Positions 1 through 24,721 of a stretch of DNA of 64,000 bases are shown here, piece by piece. The notes under the pieces were generated by a model. The model made no database searches. It had not been told where the DNA came from and was given only the letters and a program-made list of their open reading frames with translations. The translations under genes and the position numbers were made by a program. The stretch is from Calothrix sp. C42_A2020_038 (GTDB lineage: Bacteria > Cyanobacteriota > Cyanobacteriia > Cyanobacteriales > Nostocaceae): assembly GCA_015272395.1 (NCBI GenBank), contig JACYLQ010000001.1, positions 186,001 to 250,000 on the forward strand. Direction: 5' to 3'. The stretch's first letter is position 1; each line of letters starts with the position of its first letter.

Positions 1-693
1 ATCAACTGATAAGTTCATTTCGTAAGTAGTATCATATAATGATGCATATTGATATATCAACTCGCCGTAAAAGTCTTCTAACAAGTTATAGTGTAATGCT
101 CGATAGTCTTCAGGGGTAGATACTACGAACGCTGATGCTAATGCGTCGGCAACATATATTAATATTCCTACTTGTCTAGGATGAATTTCAAAGACGTGCA
201 GCGCTTCTTCCAGCCCAGTGATCGCGCGTCCACAAAATGAATACTCGCTTCTACAACCCAACCCATAAGAAAGTGTGTACTTGGAATATTCTTCCCATGC
301 AATTCTCGGACCATTGAAATATAATGATAAAAAACCTTCCATTGCTAGGTGCAGTGGCAAGAATCTGAGTGTGTTTTTTGTTTCATGTTTTACCATGCGG
401 TGCATTACCCGCGCGCTACATCCACCTTTAAAGCTTTTACCATCTCGTTTCGCAATATTGGCGCCCATATTGACTACAGCGTTACCATCGTTTGTCCACG
501 ACACTACTAGTCCGTGGGGTATGTAAGAAAGGTAATATGCTTTATCTTCGAGTGAGACGATGCCTAATTTTTCATTGTAGTTTCGACGCTGTAACCGTAG
601 GTCTCGACGAATATTACGACGAATAAGGGGAACGATGCGAATACTACCGCATATTTGAGAAGGGGCAATATCAAGCCCTTTAAGTTGTAACAT
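1..693 (-). CDS. ARPP-like protein, C-terminus outside the window
   Basis: The frame is open from an ATG at 693 to base 1 without a stop, giving at least 231 residues; the C-terminus lies beyond the window. The start begins MLQLKGLDIAPSQ and is followed by an arginine-rich stretch and YLSYIPHG. The gene starts 2 bp after the stop of the upstream vWA gene, so the two are almost certainly co-transcribed. From memory this resembles the ARPP-2 type domain described by Aravind and colleagues in gene pairs linked to conflict or RNA-repair systems; that family assignment is a recollection, not a search result. It has no membrane segment or signal peptide, so a cytoplasmic partner of the vWA protein is the simplest reading. 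Confidence 0.75.
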   Translation of the reverse strand, partial: MLQLKGLDIAPSQICGSIRIVPLIRRNIRRDLRLQRRNYNEKLGIVSLEDKAYYLSYIPHGLVVSWTNDGNAVVNMGANIAKRDGKSFKGGCSARVMHRMVKHETKNTLRFLPLHLAMEGFLSLYFNGPRIAWEEYSKYTLSYGLGCRSEYSFCGRAITGLEEALHVFEIHPRQVGILIYVADALASAFVVSTPEDYRALHYNLLEDFYGELIYQYASLYDTTYEMNLSVD

Positions 694-695
694 TA

Positions 696-2117
696 TTAAG
701 GGTTAAGTAATTGTTGCGTTCTTTGTGCTAAGTATGTTTCCAGTTCGGAGAGTGTTGATGAACCTTCTGCAAATCTAGCAAATCCGAGCATTGTGGGCAT
801 ATCCTCGGCTTCTCGTAAACCGACAGTGGGAATATGAGGACTAAGAATACGTAATGAGTAATTTTCGGTGCTGAATACTGGGTTACAATGAATTATTGAA
901 GTTTTACGTAAACGATCGAGTTTTGTTCTATATACTCGCAATACTTCGGCGGCGCCGTGAGGTGGGTCATTTTCACAACCGTCAGATACTATAACTATAG
1001 TCTCGGCACCGGAACCGAGCGCTGCCAAAAGTGGCGTAGCAAGGTCGGTTTGTCCATATGGATAAACTAATAATGGGTCTTTTGGTGTAACTGTCCAAAA
1101 CGCGCGGTAGCTTTGTGATGCTGCTTTGAGTAGATAATGGGCAGCTAATACTACACCCAATGGACGACGCTTTTTTTCCTCAGAACCAGAACTTGAATAG
1201 CTACAGTCAAGAACAGCAGCAACTCGTCCCAACTTCATAGGTGCTTTTTTTAATGTATTGCGAGCAGCATTTTCCATTGCCTGGTTAAACTTGTCCCAGG
1301 TTTGAGCGCGGGTTTTGAGAGGAAGTGAGAGAATATATAATCCCAGTTTGGTGAGTGGTAAGCGCTCCCAATTCAAATTAACATCAACATCACTACGCTC
1401 TGCCGCACCTTGATAACGAAGTTTTTCTGCTACCGTCATTTGCGACTGAATACGTTTGAGAAAGACTTCACGCTTAATTTTGTGTTTAGCAGCAAATCCT
1501 TCCGCGATAGTAAAGGGTAAGTTATATATAGCATCAGTGCTATATTGTGCTTTGCGGAACTGTTCAAATAATTTATGATCAAAATGTTTTTGTTCGTGGA
1601 ACTGGAATAAAAACTTGGGAAGTTCACCAGTTAATTTTAGGTGTGTATGGGATATTGCTGCTTTTATTTTTGTACGATACTTAATCGCTTCAAAATCTAT
1701 ATCTCTACGTGTAGCTAGATACTCGCGCGTGATAGCTCTGGCACGACGGTTATTAATGCGTAACTGCTGTAATTGTTGCAATAATCCCCATGCGCGTTGG
1801 GGTGGTAATTTATTAAGTGCAGCAGCAATCAACGCACCTTCTTCTTGACGATGTTCTTTGTGTGTATTTCGTCCTGTTGCTAAAAGCTTTAAGATAATTT
1901 GCGCTTGATTAAAATGATTAACCCCAGCAGCAAGAGTGCGAGCATAGAGTAAACGGTAATTACCTAAAATATAATCATGTAAAAAGTTAATTGAGACTTT
2001 TTGCCCCTCAGCATCATCATAAAATTCTCGCTGACCACTACAAGAGTAGCAAGCGTTTATAAACATAACTAAATCTTCCTGGGCTACTTGCTGCGCCCTA
2101 GATTCTAAATTCAACAT
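696..2117 (-). CDS. Ro60/TROVE-like protein with C-terminal vWA domain
   Basis: 473 residues. Residues 1-290 are alpha-helical, leucine- and arginine-rich (IKYRTKIKAAISHTHLKL, AEKLRYQGAAERSD) and look like the HEAT-type ring of TROVE proteins. Residues 297-465 are a vWA domain with an intact metal-ion site: D304-x-S306-x-S308 (DCSYSSSGS), T357 and D379 (IVSDGCEND). Ro/Rsr proteins bind Y RNAs and help degrade or survey misfolded RNA; this one is only distantly similar, so a different vWA scaffold is possible. The partner gene follows after 2 bp. A long hairpin lies 16 bp upstream of the start. No clear Shine-Dalgarno is visible. Confidence 0.7.
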   Translation of the reverse strand: MLNLESRAQQVAQEDLVMFINACYSCSGQREFYDDAEGQKVSINFLHDYILGNYRLLYARTLAAGVNHFNQAQIILKLLATGRNTHKEHRQEEGALIAAALNKLPPQRAWGLLQQLQQLRINNRRARAITREYLATRRDIDFEAIKYRTKIKAAISHTHLKLTGELPKFLFQFHEQKHFDHKLFEQFRKAQYSTDAIYNLPFTIAEGFAAKHKIKREVFLKRIQSQMTVAEKLRYQGAAERSDVDVNLNWERLPLTKLGLYILSLPLKTRAQTWDKFNQAMENAARNTLKKAPMKLGRVAAVLDCSYSSSGSEEKKRRPLGVVLAAHYLLKAASQSYRAFWTVTPKDPLLVYPYGQTDLATPLLAALGSGAETIVIVSDGCENDPPHGAAEVLRVYRTKLDRLRKTSIIHCNPVFSTENYSLRILSPHIPTVGLREAEDMPTMLGFARFAEGSSTLSELETYLAQRTQQLLNP

Positions 2118-2133
2118 AATTATAGTTGTATGC

Positions 2134-2236
2134 TATCGAGAGAAAGAAGTTCGGGGAATGTCGGTACGACTATGTATGGCAGATTCAATAGTCTGGTACG
2201 GAAGTCGTGCCATAGTCCCGCGAACTACTTTCGATA
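2134..2236 (+). ncRNA. Candidate structured RNA (Y-RNA-like hairpin)
   Basis: Nested complementary arms fold into one long interrupted hairpin: TATCGA (2134-2139) with TCGATA (2231-2236), AGTTCG (2148-2153) with CGAACT (2221-2226), GGGA (2154-2157) with TCCC (2216-2219), and GGTACGACT (2163-2171) with AGTCGTGCC (2203-2211). The apical loop is 31 nt. The last stem is complete only if read as plus-strand RNA, where it contains a U-G wobble; on the minus strand it would be a C-A mismatch. Length and shape resemble Y RNAs, which in bacteria are often encoded beside Ro genes. No promoter or terminator was identified. It could instead be a leader structure or a decayed repeat. Confidence 0.35.
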
Positions 2237-2564
2237 TACATAGGGTACCCAAGAAATCTTCCCCGAAGCTAATTCCGATTAATTTTGCTCACTTTCCTTG
2301 TGAATAAAGCTTTTGGCGCCTGGGTAACATCACTTTGCTCAGGGAATTCCCCCAGCTAGCTTTGCAAAGTGAATCTAGATGCCACACAGCTTGAATAATG
2401 GTGGTTTTGGAGGTCAGACCCAAAATTTACCCCGCGATTTTCTGCCAAAGTGCATGGTTTTTGAGCATCTAAATCCCATAATCTTGCACTTTTTACCTCA
2501 AAAATGATTAAAACCCTTTCTGGTCAAGGTTATAGCTTTAATCAGCAACCCCTAATTAATAAAA
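2237..2564. other. Intergenic region before the Uma2 gene
   Basis: No gene is recognised. TTCCCCGAA at about 2258-2267 is complementary to TTCGGGGAA at 2150-2158 inside the upstream hairpin and could form an alternative pairing. A GGCGCC site lies at 2315-2320. The remainder presumably carries the Uma2 promoter, which I cannot place. Confidence 0.4.
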
Positions 2565-5871: not shown

Positions 5872-7173
5872 ATGTTACGTTCACCAAATCCCTTTGTTGT
5901 TGGCAAACCAGTACCCGCAGAGCGCTTTGTCGGTCGAGAGTCGGAAATAGCGGCAGCATTTGACCAAATCTATAACCGCAGCCACATTGCTGTTTGGGGT
6001 GGTTCTGGTATGGGCAAATCCTCCTTCTTACAAAAACTAGAATCACCCCAAACTTGGGTAGAACATGGATTAGATGCTTTAAAAGCGGTTGTTGTTCGTT
6101 TTAGTTGTGAAGGTATAACTCCTTTTAGTTCCTCTGCTTTTTGGGGAGAAGCACTAACTCTCTTAAAGGATAAGTTGGAAGGTGAATTAGAGCAGGCTGA
6201 AATTGAGGCATTATTGCAGAAAACAGAAAAAACCAAGGATGACTTGCGACAGATATTAAAAGTCCTTGGGAGAAAAAACAAGTTCTTGGTGCTGTTGATC
6301 GATGACTATGATGTAGCTTTAAATACTAATGAATATTATGATGAAAAAGCTATGCAAAAATTTTTGAGTGAGTGTCGCAATTTGGCAGTTCATTCTGCTG
6401 AGGGTCAATATCTGTCAACGATTGTTACCTCGCGCGAGCGTCTTAGTGAGTCAGGTCCTCAACTAAACCCCAATGCTTCCCCTTGGTACAATCATTATCT
6501 TTTTTTACAACTCAAGCCATTTAATAATCTGGAAATTGACCAAATCTTAAAGATTTTGAGAATACCAGATTTGCGCGAAGCAATTAGAGAAACTACTGGT
6601 GGCCATCCTGCGTTGTTGCAAATAGCAGGTTTTTTACTGTATCGAGATTTAGAAACTGCAAATGCACCAAGTATGGAAGCATTCGTGAAGGAGTTTGAAA
6701 GTACCTCTCAACCAATTTTTCAAGATATTTGGAAAAGATGTAGTGAAAATGAGCAAACGTTGTTAATGCTCATGGCTCTTTCAGCTTTGAAAGGTCGTCT
6801 GCATCAGCAAAGGCAATTTGATGTTAGTGGTATAGAGTTTATTTTTAGTCAGAAAGAGAGAGAATTATCTAAATTAGAAGAACAAGGTATAATTAACCAT
6901 ACTTCTAATGAAGAGAAAACTAAAAATATTTACTTTTTTACTTCATCAACGATGGAACGTTGGGTCATTCAAGAGCTTTGGCAAACTGATGAAAAATGGT
7001 TAGACGCTAGACAAAAAGTTTTTCTAAATTTGATGAGTAAAGAACAGCGGGAAAAAATAAATAAATCGATTCAATGGCTGTGGAATAATCGAAAAGAATT
7101 ACCATCGGTTCTAGAATGGTTTGGCAAACTAGCGACAGCTTTCCCTAAAGGATTTATTTTACCGAATAGTTAG
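5872..7173 (+). CDS. STAND-type P-loop NTPase (first of three)
   Basis: 433 residues. It opens with NPFVVGKPVPAERFVGRE, the leader motif shared by the next two genes. Walker A is GGSGMGKSS (43-51), Walker B FLVLLIDDYD (138-147), an arginine-bearing sensor-1 strand is TIVTSRER (183-190), and GGHPALLQ is a STAND GxP motif. The last about 130 residues form a winged-helix or helical tail ending FPKGFILPNS, with no recognisable effector or sensor domain and no membrane helix. It may be the soluble partner or adaptor of the two receptor NTPases; the next gene starts 14 bp later behind a good Shine-Dalgarno (AGGGAGG), so they form an operon. Start chosen at the first ATG, immediately before the leader motif. 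Confidence 0.85.
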   Translation: MLRSPNPFVVGKPVPAERFVGRESEIAAAFDQIYNRSHIAVWGGSGMGKSSFLQKLESPQTWVEHGLDALKAVVVRFSCEGITPFSSSAFWGEALTLLKDKLEGELEQAEIEALLQKTEKTKDDLRQILKVLGRKNKFLVLLIDDYDVALNTNEYYDEKAMQKFLSECRNLAVHSAEGQYLSTIVTSRERLSESGPQLNPNASPWYNHYLFLQLKPFNNLEIDQILKILRIPDLREAIRETTGGHPALLQIAGFLLYRDLETANAPSMEAFVKEFESTSQPIFQDIWKRCSENEQTLLMLMALSALKGRLHQQRQFDVSGIEFIFSQKERELSKLEEQGIINHTSNEEKTKNIYFFTSSTMERWVIQELWQTDEKWLDARQKVFLNLMSKEQREKINKSIQWLWNNRKELPSVLEWFGKLATAFPKGFILPNS

Positions 7174-7187
7174 TAGGGAGGTAAATT

Positions 7188-10184
7188 ATGGTTGGGGGAA
7201 ACGGTAACAGAAATCCTTACATTATTGGTCGTCCTATTAATAGCAATGAAACTGAAAAGTTTTTTGGTCGAGAAACTCTCTTTAAATTCATTGAGGATAA
7301 CCTTCTTCAAGGCTCCAAAATTATTTTACTACACGGTCAAAGGCGCATTGGTAAATCATCTGTACTGAAACATATTCCTAATTTTATCACAAATGATGAA
7401 TTTGTTTTTGTTCAGTTTGATCTACAGCATAGAATTGGGTCAAACTTAAGTAACATTTTATATAATTTAGCGACAGAAATTATTCATCAATTAGGTCTAG
7501 ATGGAATTAAATGTCCTACAGAGACAGAATTTACAGAAATTAAAAATTGTTTCCATCGTCGATTTTTACCTCAAGTTTATGAGTTGATAGAACATAAAAA
7601 ATTAGTTTTACTACTTGATGAGTTTGATGTTGCTAATCAAAATAATAATGGTGCTGCTAATTCTGAACAAGGAACTTTCTTCCTGTATATAAACCAGCTT
7701 CTCAAGGAACAAGAAAATTTATTTATTATTCCTGTGGTTGGTAGATATCTAAATGATTTACCTAACCTCAGAAAATTATTTAAAAATGCGCCATTTCAAG
7801 AAATTGGTTTACTAGATGATATTGGCGCCAAACAACTGATAATTAAAACTGCTGAAGGAAAATTAAACTATCAACCAGAGGCGATAGAGCGAATTTTACA
7901 ACTAACTGCCGGACATCCTTATTTCACTCAAACTATTTGCTTTAGTCTATTTGAACAAGCTAGAAATGATGTAAACTGGACTGTGAGTTTTACCGACATT
8001 GAGCATGTTTTTGACCAAGCAATTGCCAATTCCGAAGCTGGATTAAGAGGATTATGGAATGTATTAACTATTCCAGAAAGAGTTATTATTTCATCTGTCG
8101 CAGAAGCCAAAAATATTGCTAATCAGAAAGGGACTACTACTTTAGAAGAACCTCTAATAGTACTGAAAAGAAAAGGTGTAGTTTCTACTGAACCATTAAT
8201 TCAGGCATGTGAAAGACTCAAAGAAAACCACTATTTGGATAACGATGGCTGTAAATTAACCGTAGAGTTCATTTGTCATTGGTTGATTAAACATCATCCA
8301 TTACGAGATGAGATATCTGAGTTGGAAAATCTAGAAATCCAAACAGTTCAACCCCTTCAAACAGCAGCCAATCTTCTTCGTGACGGAGCAGAATCCCCAG
8401 ATTCTATAATCATGCTTTATGAACGAGCTTTAACTATCAATCCTAATAACTTCTCAATTATATTGTTGTTAGCTCAAGAATATTTACATACGAGTAATTT
8501 TGAAAAAGCTTTAGAACTTTTTCGACGATGTTATCAAGTAAAACCCGAATATTATAGAGAAGCATATCTAACTGCTCTCACTACGTATGGGCACCATTTG
8601 ATAACCCAAAGACAGTTTACACTGGCAAAATTACAATACCAAATAATTTTAGAAATTGAACCAAATCGAGCATCAGCTAGAGAAAGATTAGAAGAAATTG
8701 AAGCTTATCAAAGGAAAAATACAAATTATATTGCCATTACTTGGCGAACGCTTTTCGATACACTACAATTATTTGTCAGTACTCCAGTCCTATCTTTGTT
8801 GATTACTGGAATTGCATCTCTGAGTGTTGGCATTGGTATTTATAGATATATTAGTCCCTGTGCTGAAGGTGAACAGAAAAAACTTGGTTTTCTTTGTGTC
8901 AACAGTCAAAATAGTAACTTTAGTAAAGGTGAACGGACTTTCTTTCCTAACCTTCAGAACCCAAAACGTGATGAAGGTACTAAACTATTTGCTAAAGGTA
9001 AGTATCCAGAAGCTGTCAAATCCTTTGAACAAGCTGTAGCAGATAACCGTAATGACCCAGAAGTACTCATCTACTATAATAATGCCCTTGCTTATCAAAA
9101 GAAAGAACCTTTCACCCTTGCAGTCGCAGTACCTGTAGGTACTAAAAGTAACATTGCTCAAGAAATTTTACGTGGTGTGGCACAGGCACAGCATGAGTTT
9201 AACAGTAAAGGCGGTTTAAACGGTCGATTGCTAGAAATTATTATTGCTAATGATGCTAACGATAGAGAACAAGCTAAATATGTCGCTTTTGAACTAGTTA
9301 ACAATCAATCGATATTAGGAGTAATCGGGCACTATTCTAGTGGTGTGACAGAAGTTGCATTGGAAGAGTATAACAAAACAGAAATACCAGTAATCTCTCC
9401 TACTAGTACGAGTATTTCCTTACAGGGGGAGTATTTTTTCCGAACTGTGCCTTCTGATGCTGCGGCTGGTAAAAAAATGGCGGAATATGCTTTTAAAACG
9501 ATGAATATAAATAAAGTCGTGATTTTTTTTAACCCGCGCGAATCATATAGTGACAGCATGAGAGAAGAATTTACAAAACGCTTTGAACACTTAACAGGGC
9601 AGGTAGTCCGTAAGATTAATTTAGCCGATAACCAATTTGACGCACGTAAAGAAGTTGCTGTCAGTCTGTTTAGATATCAAGCAGGAGCAGCAGTGTTATT
9701 CCCGGATGCAGGAAATACAAATGCAGCTTTAAAAATTGCTCAAGAGAGCCAAGATTTACTTAATAATCCCCAAAACCAAAACAGACAAAGGCTAAAACTT
9801 TTTGGAGGTGATACTCTCTATAGTAATGAAACCTTAAACTTAGATAGAGATGCAGTCGAAGATTTGGCTCTTGTTGTTTCCTGGTTTCGTGATTTTCCGC
9901 AAGCCAAAAAGTTCGCTCAAAAATCTGCACAGCAATGGGGAGGTGGCGTAAGTTGGCGGACTGCAACTAGCTATGATGCAACACAAGCATTTATTCAAGC
10001 TCTAGCTACTAGTCCGACACATCCTACCCGCTCAAGAGTGATTGACAGCTTAAAGAATATTAATCTTTCTAAAGAAAATACTTCTGGAGAACCGCTTCGG
10101 TTTACTCCAGATCGAGAGCGACAAATTGAACCATTTATCGTGACAGTAAAAAATAGAAAGTTTGTTGCAATACCGCAACAATAA
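7188..10184 (+). CDS. Transmembrane receptor NTPase: STAND ATPase-TPR-TM-periplasmic binding domain
   Basis: 998 residues in one chain. Leader NPYIIGRPI; Walker A HGQRRIGKSS (49-58), Walker B LVLLLDEFDV (139-148), GxP motif AGHPYFTQ (241-248); winged-helix region to about 380; TPRs at about 395-505; a single membrane helix at about 531-553; a further TPR (GTKLFAKGKYPEAVKSFEQA, about 597-616); and a type-I periplasmic binding domain of the Leu/Ile/Val receptor class from about 642 to the end (LAVAVPVGTKSNIA, VIGHYSSGVTEVAL, VISPTSTS). Topology implies a cytoplasmic ATPase and an extracytoplasmic ligand sensor. Inference: ligand binding outside controls STAND oligomerisation inside. The ligand is unknown; amino acids are typical for this fold. 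Confidence 0.85.
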   Translation: MVGGNGNRNPYIIGRPINSNETEKFFGRETLFKFIEDNLLQGSKIILLHGQRRIGKSSVLKHIPNFITNDEFVFVQFDLQHRIGSNLSNILYNLATEIIHQLGLDGIKCPTETEFTEIKNCFHRRFLPQVYELIEHKKLVLLLDEFDVANQNNNGAANSEQGTFFLYINQLLKEQENLFIIPVVGRYLNDLPNLRKLFKNAPFQEIGLLDDIGAKQLIIKTAEGKLNYQPEAIERILQLTAGHPYFTQTICFSLFEQARNDVNWTVSFTDIEHVFDQAIANSEAGLRGLWNVLTIPERVIISSVAEAKNIANQKGTTTLEEPLIVLKRKGVVSTEPLIQACERLKENHYLDNDGCKLTVEFICHWLIKHHPLRDEISELENLEIQTVQPLQTAANLLRDGAESPDSIIMLYERALTINPNNFSIILLLAQEYLHTSNFEKALELFRRCYQVKPEYYREAYLTALTTYGHHLITQRQFTLAKLQYQIILEIEPNRASARERLEEIEAYQRKNTNYIAITWRTLFDTLQLFVSTPVLSLLITGIASLSVGIGIYRYISPCAEGEQKKLGFLCVNSQNSNFSKGERTFFPNLQNPKRDEGTKLFAKGKYPEAVKSFEQAVADNRNDPEVLIYYNNALAYQKKEPFTLAVAVPVGTKSNIAQEILRGVAQAQHEFNSKGGLNGRLLEIIIANDANDREQAKYVAFELVNNQSILGVIGHYSSGVTEVALEEYNKTEIPVISPTSTSISLQGEYFFRTVPSDAAAGKKMAEYAFKTMNINKVVIFFNPRESYSDSMREEFTKRFEHLTGQVVRKINLADNQFDARKEVAVSLFRYQAGAAVLFPDAGNTNAALKIAQESQDLLNNPQNQNRQRLKLFGGDTLYSNETLNLDRDAVEDLALVVSWFRDFPQAKKFAQKSAQQWGGGVSWRTATSYDATQAFIQALATSPTHPTRSRVIDSLKNINLSKENTSGEPLRFTPDRERQIEPFIVTVKNRKFVAIPQQ

Positions 10185-24229: not shown

Positions 24230-24519
24230 TAGTAACCGTAAATAAGTTCCTGACTACCATCAATGTTTTGTTAAGATAAATACATTCAAACTGTAAAAAT
24301 AAGTGTTATTCGCAAAAAAACCGCTATTTTACAAACTAAAATTAAAAAAAGAAGTTGATTTTATACACGTATGATATTTCACGCTATAAAACTAAATATA
24401 GCGTTTTTGTTTCTAATGAAGTACGCTAGAGTCAGGTAGTATCCTAAATGATGTCGAAAATACAAAATTTTGTAAATCTACCTAACCACACTCAAATTGT
24501 GTTACATTGTACATTGATT

Positions 24520-24684
24520 CCGGTTCTAGTGGAGAGCAGCCACTAGAGGTAACGGGGAAAGTTCGGTGCGAATCCGACACTGTCCCGCAGCTGTAAACTA
24601 AATTTTTGGTAGGAGATGCGGTAAAAAAAATTCCCGAATCGCTAATCTAAAACCAAAAATTGAGTAAGTCAGAATGCCCGCCGA
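24520..24684 (+). promoter_or_regulatory. Cobalamin (B12) riboswitch
   Basis: The conserved core is readable: AACGGGGAAAGTTCGGTG (24551-24568), AATCCGACACTGTCCCGCAG (24571-24590), CTGTAA, and the 3-prime B12 box AAGTCAGAATGCCCGCC (24666-24682). It lies 38 nt before the DUF1636 ATG. No intrinsic terminator is evident between aptamer and gene, so translational control of the GAGGT Shine-Dalgarno (24712-24716) is more likely. Cobalamin binding would lower expression of the downstream gene. The 290 bp before it hold no gene. Confidence 0.92.
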
Positions 24685-24721
24685 AAAGTCGAAAAGATAA
24701 GCAACAATCTACGAGGTATAG

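Follow-up and report, generated by a model that had tools for sequence, protein, structure and literature searches.

A conserved Y-RNA-like RNA gene accompanies a family of predicted Ro60-like proteins in four bacterial phyla

According to the accessible text of PMC4726728, Y RNAs are bound through a bulged lower stem on the outside of Ro60, single-stranded RNA can enter the ring, and in Deinococcus radiodurans a Y RNA tethers the protein Rsr to PNPase. The vertebrate Ro60 site, as given in parts of the same article and of PMC11277228, consists of a 7-bp helix, a single bulged C, a 3-nt bulge opposite and the sequence GGUCCGA. The roles of Y RNAs, and the features of these RNAs that are relevant to Ro60, are still unsettled. 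ARPP proteins, in turn, are placed by the available portion of PMC9503650 in ADP-ribose-centred conflict systems, and their conserved Cys and Gln suggest an enzyme. We found no described function for the ARPP-2 proteins. The titles and abstract openings listed in searches of the open PMC literature contain no account of the RNA reported here or of the pair of Ro60-like and ARPP-2 genes; an earlier mention is possible.

The genome of the cyanobacterium Calothrix sp. C42_A2020_038 encodes a canonical Rsr (L144:4362-5966, from G000:C34:95000-105000), recognised by the profiles vWA_Ro60 (E 1.1e-38) and TROVE (E 6.2e-16). Two tandem tRNA-like Y RNAs lie upstream of it at L144:4001-4286, ending and beginning 76 and 361 bases upstream, and ARAGORN called no tRNA at that position. 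Here we describe another locus of the same genome, contained in a window of 64,000 nucleotides (the whole stretch of DNA that was analysed). A first-pass annotation had pointed to nested stems at window positions 2134-2236 and had read them as a possible plus-strand Y RNA beside a Ro60/TROVE-like gene. The stems are present: RNA of the plus strand folds with -46.8 kcal/mol (z -6.74) and RNA of the minus strand with -34.4 kcal/mol (z -4.79), and on either strand 0 of 200 shuffles were as good. The hairpin is real, far above chance. It ends 16 bases from the ATG of the gene at 696..2117 on the minus strand, exactly the gap originally claimed, and is overlapped by none of the listed open reading frames of at least 80 aa. 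No Rfam Y RNA matched the hairpin at gathering score in a search of the whole window, and positions 1950-2620 contained no Rfam or tRNA match at E up to 10. Elsewhere in the window, the plus strand carries a cobalamin riboswitch (24506-24699, 53.9 bits), a STAND/AAA-type NTPase gene (5872-7173) and a gene for a 998-aa protein (7188-10184) with an NTPase-like N-terminus and a ligand-binding-receptor-like C-terminus, both by eye.

What kind of protein does the adjoining gene encode? The reading frame at 696..2117 (minus strand, stop codon included) specifies 473 aa, with a helical N-terminal part and a C-terminal vWA domain whose DxSxS MIDAS residues D304, S306 and S308 are invariant in 63 sequences. 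By sequence this protein falls outside TROVE. Neither the TROVE nor the vWA_Ro60 profile matches it; Pfam returned no family at E 0.01 and, with the limit raised to 10, only Mak16 (E 0.26); NCBIfam gave no match above cut-off, a PDB sequence search none at E 0.5, and PADLOC and PHROGs no result for the proteins of the locus. Comparison with the canonical Rsr of the same genome yielded a BLAST E of 0.12 and a profile probability of 5%. The predicted structure, however, is of the Ro60 kind. An AlphaFold2 model based on the 63-sequence alignment (pLDDT 85.4, pTM 0.82) matched only four PDB entries in Foldseek at E<0.001, all of them Ro60/Rsr, with TM 0.45-0.57 (normalised to query length), rmsd 7.7-9.7 and identities of 12-14%. 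VIA-align placed only Ro60, Rsr or TROVE proteins in its ten top rows (Z 13.2-18.1 over 398-412 residues, rmsd 4.8-5.2), with Z 18.1 for 9kop (rmsd 5.0, 409 aligned), 16.0 for human Ro60 9nep (rmsd 5.0, 412 aligned) and 13.3 for D. radiodurans Rsr 2nvo (rmsd 5.2, 402 aligned); the best non-Ro row reached Z 10.5 and covered the vWA domain only. An earlier AlphaFold model from a narrow alignment (pLDDT 70.5) still had a TROVE/Ro protein in its top row (Z 12.2, rmsd 12.8). Eight viral models matched at E<0.001, the best named Ro-like and another TROVE, the remainder unnamed or annotated VWFA, VWA, DUF2828 or DUF7788. As modelled, the protein is a helical-repeat ring plus a vWA domain with a Ro60-like fold. 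The label Ro60/TROVE-like therefore holds for the predicted fold (Z 13-18 over about 400 residues) and not for sequence membership in TROVE.

Is the hairpin conserved together with this gene? A collection with one genome per species contained 115 relatives of the gene, and the best 80 of these (loci L033-L112) come from cyanobacteria, Myxococcota, Armatimonadota and Planctomycetota; locus L093 is labelled Comamonas, doubtfully, as its sequence groups with Myxococcus loci. Using a strict string pattern, which replaced an earlier, looser one that returned mostly noise, we found the same element upstream of the gene and on the gene strand in 76/80 loci. We aligned 57 non-redundant copies and built from them a covariance model, R1. 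These copies were chosen by the patterns CGGGACT, ACTTCCG and TCCCC with at most one substitution each, so that invariance at these strings is partly built in. The window copy, itself among the 57, scores 80.9 bits against R1 (cmsearch, E 3.3e-20), and it is the only copy in its own 6.5-Mb genome, the sole other model match being at chance level (E 1.08). Covariation across relatives, which the first-pass annotation had named as a check, is evident in the alignment: 19 of the 26 consensus pairs show compensatory changes on both sides. Paired cells amount to 93.3%, compared with 77.2% after shuffling and at most 45.8% when partners are slid, and the covariation score is 0.541, compared with 0.223 and at most 0.155, respectively. 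Internal loops are conserved in sequence. Six single copies from four phyla share the outer architecture (z -5.2 to -2.4), and the divergent cyanobacterial copies of genomes G163 (55.1 bits) and G152 (40.9 bits), which lie outside the model and were not chosen by pattern, retain the structure with P2 rewritten. Likewise outside the pattern selection, L096 is without TTCCG and L154 without GGGACT.

The direction of the RNA was assigned from the whole family. The plus strand had originally been preferred on account of a U-G wobble that complements that strand only. This is correct for the window copy, in which the minus strand has a C-A mismatch, but the family points the other way: across the 57 copies the gene-strand structure contains 141 G-U cells versus 27 A-C cells, while a structure derived on the opposite strand has more A-C (63) than G-U (21) cells. 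The consensus energy is -37.2 kcal/mol on the gene strand versus -22.8 for the reverse-complement alignment folded as a control. Less in favour of the gene strand, single copies prefer it in only 39/57 cases (mean -38.3 versus -36.5). The window copy, which folds better on the plus strand, is an exception. The RNA is encoded on the minus strand, in the direction of the gene, and the plus-strand assignment is withdrawn.

Read on the minus strand, the Y-RNA-like noncoding RNA occupies 2134..2236, as supported by shuffles and covariation; the model match covers 2137-2236, and the outer stem of the copy itself reaches 2134. A length of about 100 nt and a long stem formed from both ends are present, the ends being those of model and fold rather than of a mapped transcript. 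The consensus opens with P1 (9 pairs), the 5' arm of which (2221..2229, columns 8-16 of alignment A2) pairs with 2145-2153. A single bulged pyrimidine follows at 2220 (A2 column 17; C in 44/57 and U in 13/57 aligned copies), and then GGGACU at 2214..2219, in which GGGA (2216-2219) forms four pairs with UCCC (2154-2157) and CU opens an asymmetric internal loop. GGGACU is invariant in 57/57 aligned copies, partly by selection. UCCC and the 3' arm of P1 together occupy 2145..2157 and are assigned by covariation, with both-sided changes in 8/13 pairs of helix 1. Beyond the internal loop lies P2 (9 pairs; both-sided changes in 7/9), with its 5' arm at 2203..2211 and its covarying 3' arm at 2163..2171 (A2 columns 26-34 with 70-78). 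The motif UUCCG at 2199..2203 (A2 columns 34-38), whose first U closes P2, is found in 57/57 copies, again partly by selection, and is also kept in the distant loci L145 and L146; these two contain the strings GGGACT and TTCCG, but their lower stem reads GGAAC where GGGAC would be expected, and they are without TCCCC. The small apical hairpin P3 (2180..2194; A2 columns 44-47 with 56-61) has both-sided changes in 4/4 pairs and 86.4% of its cells paired. Within 20 bases before P1, 30 of 69 copies carry TGnTAnnnT, an extended -10 element, 23 of them at -14/-15; the 69 copies were dereplicated at 80% and are not fully independent, and the background of this motif averages 0.05 per offset with a maximum of 1. 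An extended -10 fixed 14-15 bases before P1 implies that the RNA probably starts at P1. The window copy is without TGnTAnnnT and has, by eye, a weak -10-like TATATC at 2233..2238.

Applied to 82 sources (1.03 Mb), R1 produced 87 matches at E up to 1, every one on the gene strand and upstream of the gene. Eighty-five of these fall in 77/80 loci, and the other two are the window and L032, which represent the same place. The genomes of the three loci without a linked RNA (L045, L057 and L069) hold the RNA elsewhere, those of L057 and L069 at the end of a contig, which is where an assembly break between RNA and gene would leave it. For the 80 loci, the conserved stem that was anticipated beside the gene is found upstream of it or, for three, elsewhere in the genome. 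Strong protein matches (E<1e-100) occur in 35 of 150 relatives, and the RNA is found in the identical 35; six more have weak partial protein matches and no RNA. Among 292 genomes of the phylum, 12 have the RNA and 14 the protein. Every genome with the RNA also has the protein, and completeness is 87% and 73% for the two that have the protein only. Of 146 myxobacterial genomes (Archangium phylum), 35 encode the protein; the RNA was detected in all of these and, marginally, in one more (G453, E 0.004), a match that we took as false, that genome having no protein match. In eleven genomes from outside the cyanobacteria the RNA has a single strong copy, accompanied in one of them by a weak extra match (E 0.019). 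The genome sets overlap partly with each other and with the 80 loci, and stricter Infernal filters, at which weak matches are lost, applied whenever more than 40 genomes were searched. The RNA gene is conserved, covaries and goes with the Ro60-like gene family across four phyla.

Two bases separate the Ro60-like gene from a gene for ARPP-2 (PF22549, E 5.6e-98). Its window portion lies at 1..693 on the minus strand, another 461 bases extend beyond the window edge, and the full reading frame (L032:9539-10693) encodes 384 aa. An ORF of the ARPP-2 cluster is located downstream in 70/80 loci, counting those cut by a contig end, with a median distance of 1,474 bases from the start of the match; cluster ORFs were called mechanically, and Pfam ARPP-2 was confirmed for the window and L033. 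In the divergent genomes G152 and G163, too, ARPP-2 adjoins the Ro60-like gene. An ORF cluster next to the RNA in 13/80 loci was considered as a third component and rejected: three members tested belong to alr0857, a named family that is widespread in Nostocales, and the cluster probably only marks the ancestral site. ORFs similar to L038:2259-5213 are found near the operon in 11/80 loci, and the one member tested is an EAD4-NACHT protein, a neighbourhood typical of conflict systems. On the Nostoc edaphicum plasmid pNe_3, XisH and XisI (L150:6478-7217) separate the Ro60-like gene from the gene that occupies the ARPP-2 position. Genome G136 contains a truncated Ro60-like gene (285 aa; L153:6865-7722) that still has the RNA upstream and lies beside ORFs that appear transposase-like by eye.

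Distant homologues of the protein exist on mobile elements. A plasmid of Alkaliphilus sp. B6464 (L149:3172-6195) encodes one, with a profile match over 360 columns, followed by an ARPP-1/DUF6569 gene and with a TerD-family gene nearby. Upstream of it is a hairpin (L149:3172-3355, z -4.74) with UUCCGA after its second stem, to which R1 gives no match; we regard this hairpin only as a lead. An uncultured jumbo phage (LR756500.1, L151:3378-5989) encodes a Ro60-like homologue followed by a gene that is ARPP-like by eye, with no notable hairpin upstream. Searches of viral contigs returned nothing for the Ro60-like protein or for its Alkaliphilus homologue, and phage records nothing for ARPP-2.

We consider it very probable that the hairpin is the gene of a minus-strand noncoding RNA of about 100 nt, which acts in trans as the dedicated partner of the adjoining Ro60-like protein. 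The covarying structure, its bias to the gene strand, the promoter-like element, one-to-one co-occurrence with the protein gene and the predicted Ro60-like fold lead us to read it as an RNA gene, and we infer that the RNA is transcribed and bound by the protein. Could the hairpin instead be a cis-acting operon leader, to which the Ro60-like protein or another factor binds on its own mRNA to regulate expression, so that a free RNA would be unneeded? The upstream, gene-strand position in 77/80 loci agrees with such a leader, and so does the spacing of the outer stem, whose end in many loci lies about 5-60 bases from the start codon (heuristic starts) and in the Sorangium-type loci L096, L103, L104 and L111 about 6 bases from it. 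Yet a position in the leader of the controlled gene does not hold in two Nostoc-like genomes. In G061, RNA and operon are on different contigs (C228 and C130, respectively), and a stretch of over 15 kb upstream of the gene lacks the RNA. In G550, the genome of L045, the RNA is at C240:4461 and the gene within 130-144 kb of a contig of 236 kb; were this a single contig, the distance would still be at least 120 kb. The 13.4-kb operon locus of G550 is without the RNA, and in both genomes the RNA adjoins an alr0857-cluster gene. This separation argues for action in trans. Also awkward for a leader are extra copies in G136 (3.6 Mb off, on the same contig) and G518 (13 kb off), distances to the start codon of up to about 580 bases, one to three tandem copies, an alr0857-cluster ORF that in L040 and L054 separates the RNA from the operon, and a T-run close after P1 in some loci (for example L098, L099 and L105). 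Taken together, we judge the leader to be unlikely. Apart from this spacing, several observations count against the trans-acting partner: the better plus-strand folding of the window copy and of other single copies, 39/57 of which prefer the gene strand, the lack of any Ro60 relationship by sequence methods, the modest Foldseek TM values, the jumbo-phage homologue without a hairpin, the Alkaliphilus hairpin without an R1 match, and runs of at least four T's just after P1 in only 16/85 copies.

The arrangement recalls the canonical pair, with its two Y RNAs just upstream of Rsr, and together with paired ends and a Ro60-like fold it would also suit a true YrlA-type Y RNA that has drifted beside a drifted Rsr. 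A short CCGAA string is common to the new RNA and the canonical Y RNAs, and UCCGA is shared with the vertebrate motif as given in the accessible part of PMC11277228, though it stands elsewhere in the new RNA; both likenesses may be chance. Membership of the bacterial Y RNAs (YrlA) in the literal sense is not supported by the features tested: the element lacks a tRNA-like module and matches neither an Rfam Y RNA nor a tRNA, no Rfam Y RNA reaches gathering score in 10 loci of the new RNA, and a search of 9 canonical Rsr loci gave no match to R1. Moreover, TROVE scores above cut-off in 22/60 relatives, 13 of which also have the new protein and 9 of which do not, with the new protein occurring without TROVE in a further 4/60. 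Coexistence in 13 of the 22 means that there one is not the drifted form of the other, and drift from YrlA thus appears distinctly improbable. Nor does a DNA element, such as a transposon end, a recombination site or a bidirectional terminator, explain the data. The hairpin is a long intergenic inverted repeat with near-palindromic ends in the window copy, but the excess of G-U on one strand, the conserved internal-loop sequence, the presence of one strong copy per genome, both in Calothrix and in the 11 others searched, and a promoter-like element tied to the 5' end make this reading almost negligible. By the tested features the RNA is Y-RNA-like and not a Y RNA, a label that rests on a Y RNA-type arrangement and anatomy while the hallmarks of YrlA fail; its place next to a Ro60-type gene, as first proposed, stands in 77/80 loci, given the predicted fold.

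Most likely, then, the locus encodes a second, parallel Ro-type ribonucleoprotein, as yet predicted, whose Y-RNA-like RNA belongs to a new family and acts in trans. By analogy with Ro60 and Y RNA, the protein would probably bind the lower stem, namely the single bulged pyrimidine and the GGGA/UCCC helix, and the RNA would most likely lie on the outside of the ring. There it would stabilise the protein and control the access of other RNAs to the ring. Its upper part would gate the ring or recruit a partner, for which ARPP-2 is the obvious candidate. ARPP-2 would probably be the enzyme served by the particle and would function in RNA turnover or repair when cells face stress or phages; this is the least certain step. 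A bolder version seems to us less likely than not. In it, a non-TROVE protein of Ro60 fold and its own RNA family would form a second class of Ro ribonucleoproteins, parallel to Rsr-YrlA in the same cells. The RNA would link the ring to ARPP-2, as an enzyme for ribose or ADP-ribose groups, and the particle would serve largely multicellular bacteria against stress or viruses, with the RNA as guide or gate.

A second Ro-type pair, unrelated in sequence to the first, with near one-to-one co-occurrence and a canonical control in the same genome, would separate what is essential to such particles (paired ends, a bulged lower stem, the Ro ring) from what is dispensable (the tRNA mimic), and the pair gives the ARPP-2 proteins a concrete setting. 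How does it compare with the systems already described? With Rsr-YrlA of D. radiodurans and of Calothrix itself (G000:C34, L144:4001-5966) it shares a predicted Ro60-like fold with a vWA domain and a structured RNA of about 100 nt just upstream, sometimes in tandem. It differs in a protein that the TROVE and vWA_Ro60 profiles do not recognise, in an RNA without a tRNA-like module or a detected sequence relation to YrlA, and in ARPP-2 as the partner gene. Phage Ro60 proteins (9l5y of Thermus phage phiLo, and Gordonia phage VanLee in BFVD) are among the closest fold matches, at about 11% identity over the aligned part. The vertebrate Ro60-Y RNA complex offers a likeness of anatomy that need not reflect homology: a lower stem formed by the ends, a single bulged pyrimidine, a short helix and an internal loop, as well as UCCGA. 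The lower part of the new RNA comprises a 9-bp helix, a single bulged C/U and a 4-bp helix, followed by an internal loop. The two kinds of RNA differ in sequence, in where the bulge sits and in the upper part, and the new RNA has no known La binding. The ARPP-containing conflict systems of PMC9503650, finally, resemble the locus in an ARPP-type protein and in neighbourhoods that can hold a vWA protein. The partners named in the available portion of that article are ADP-ribosylglycohydrolase, phosphatases and vWA chaperones, with no mention there of a Ro60-like fold or an RNA, whereas at the present locus ARPP-2 is paired with both a Ro60-like protein and an RNA.
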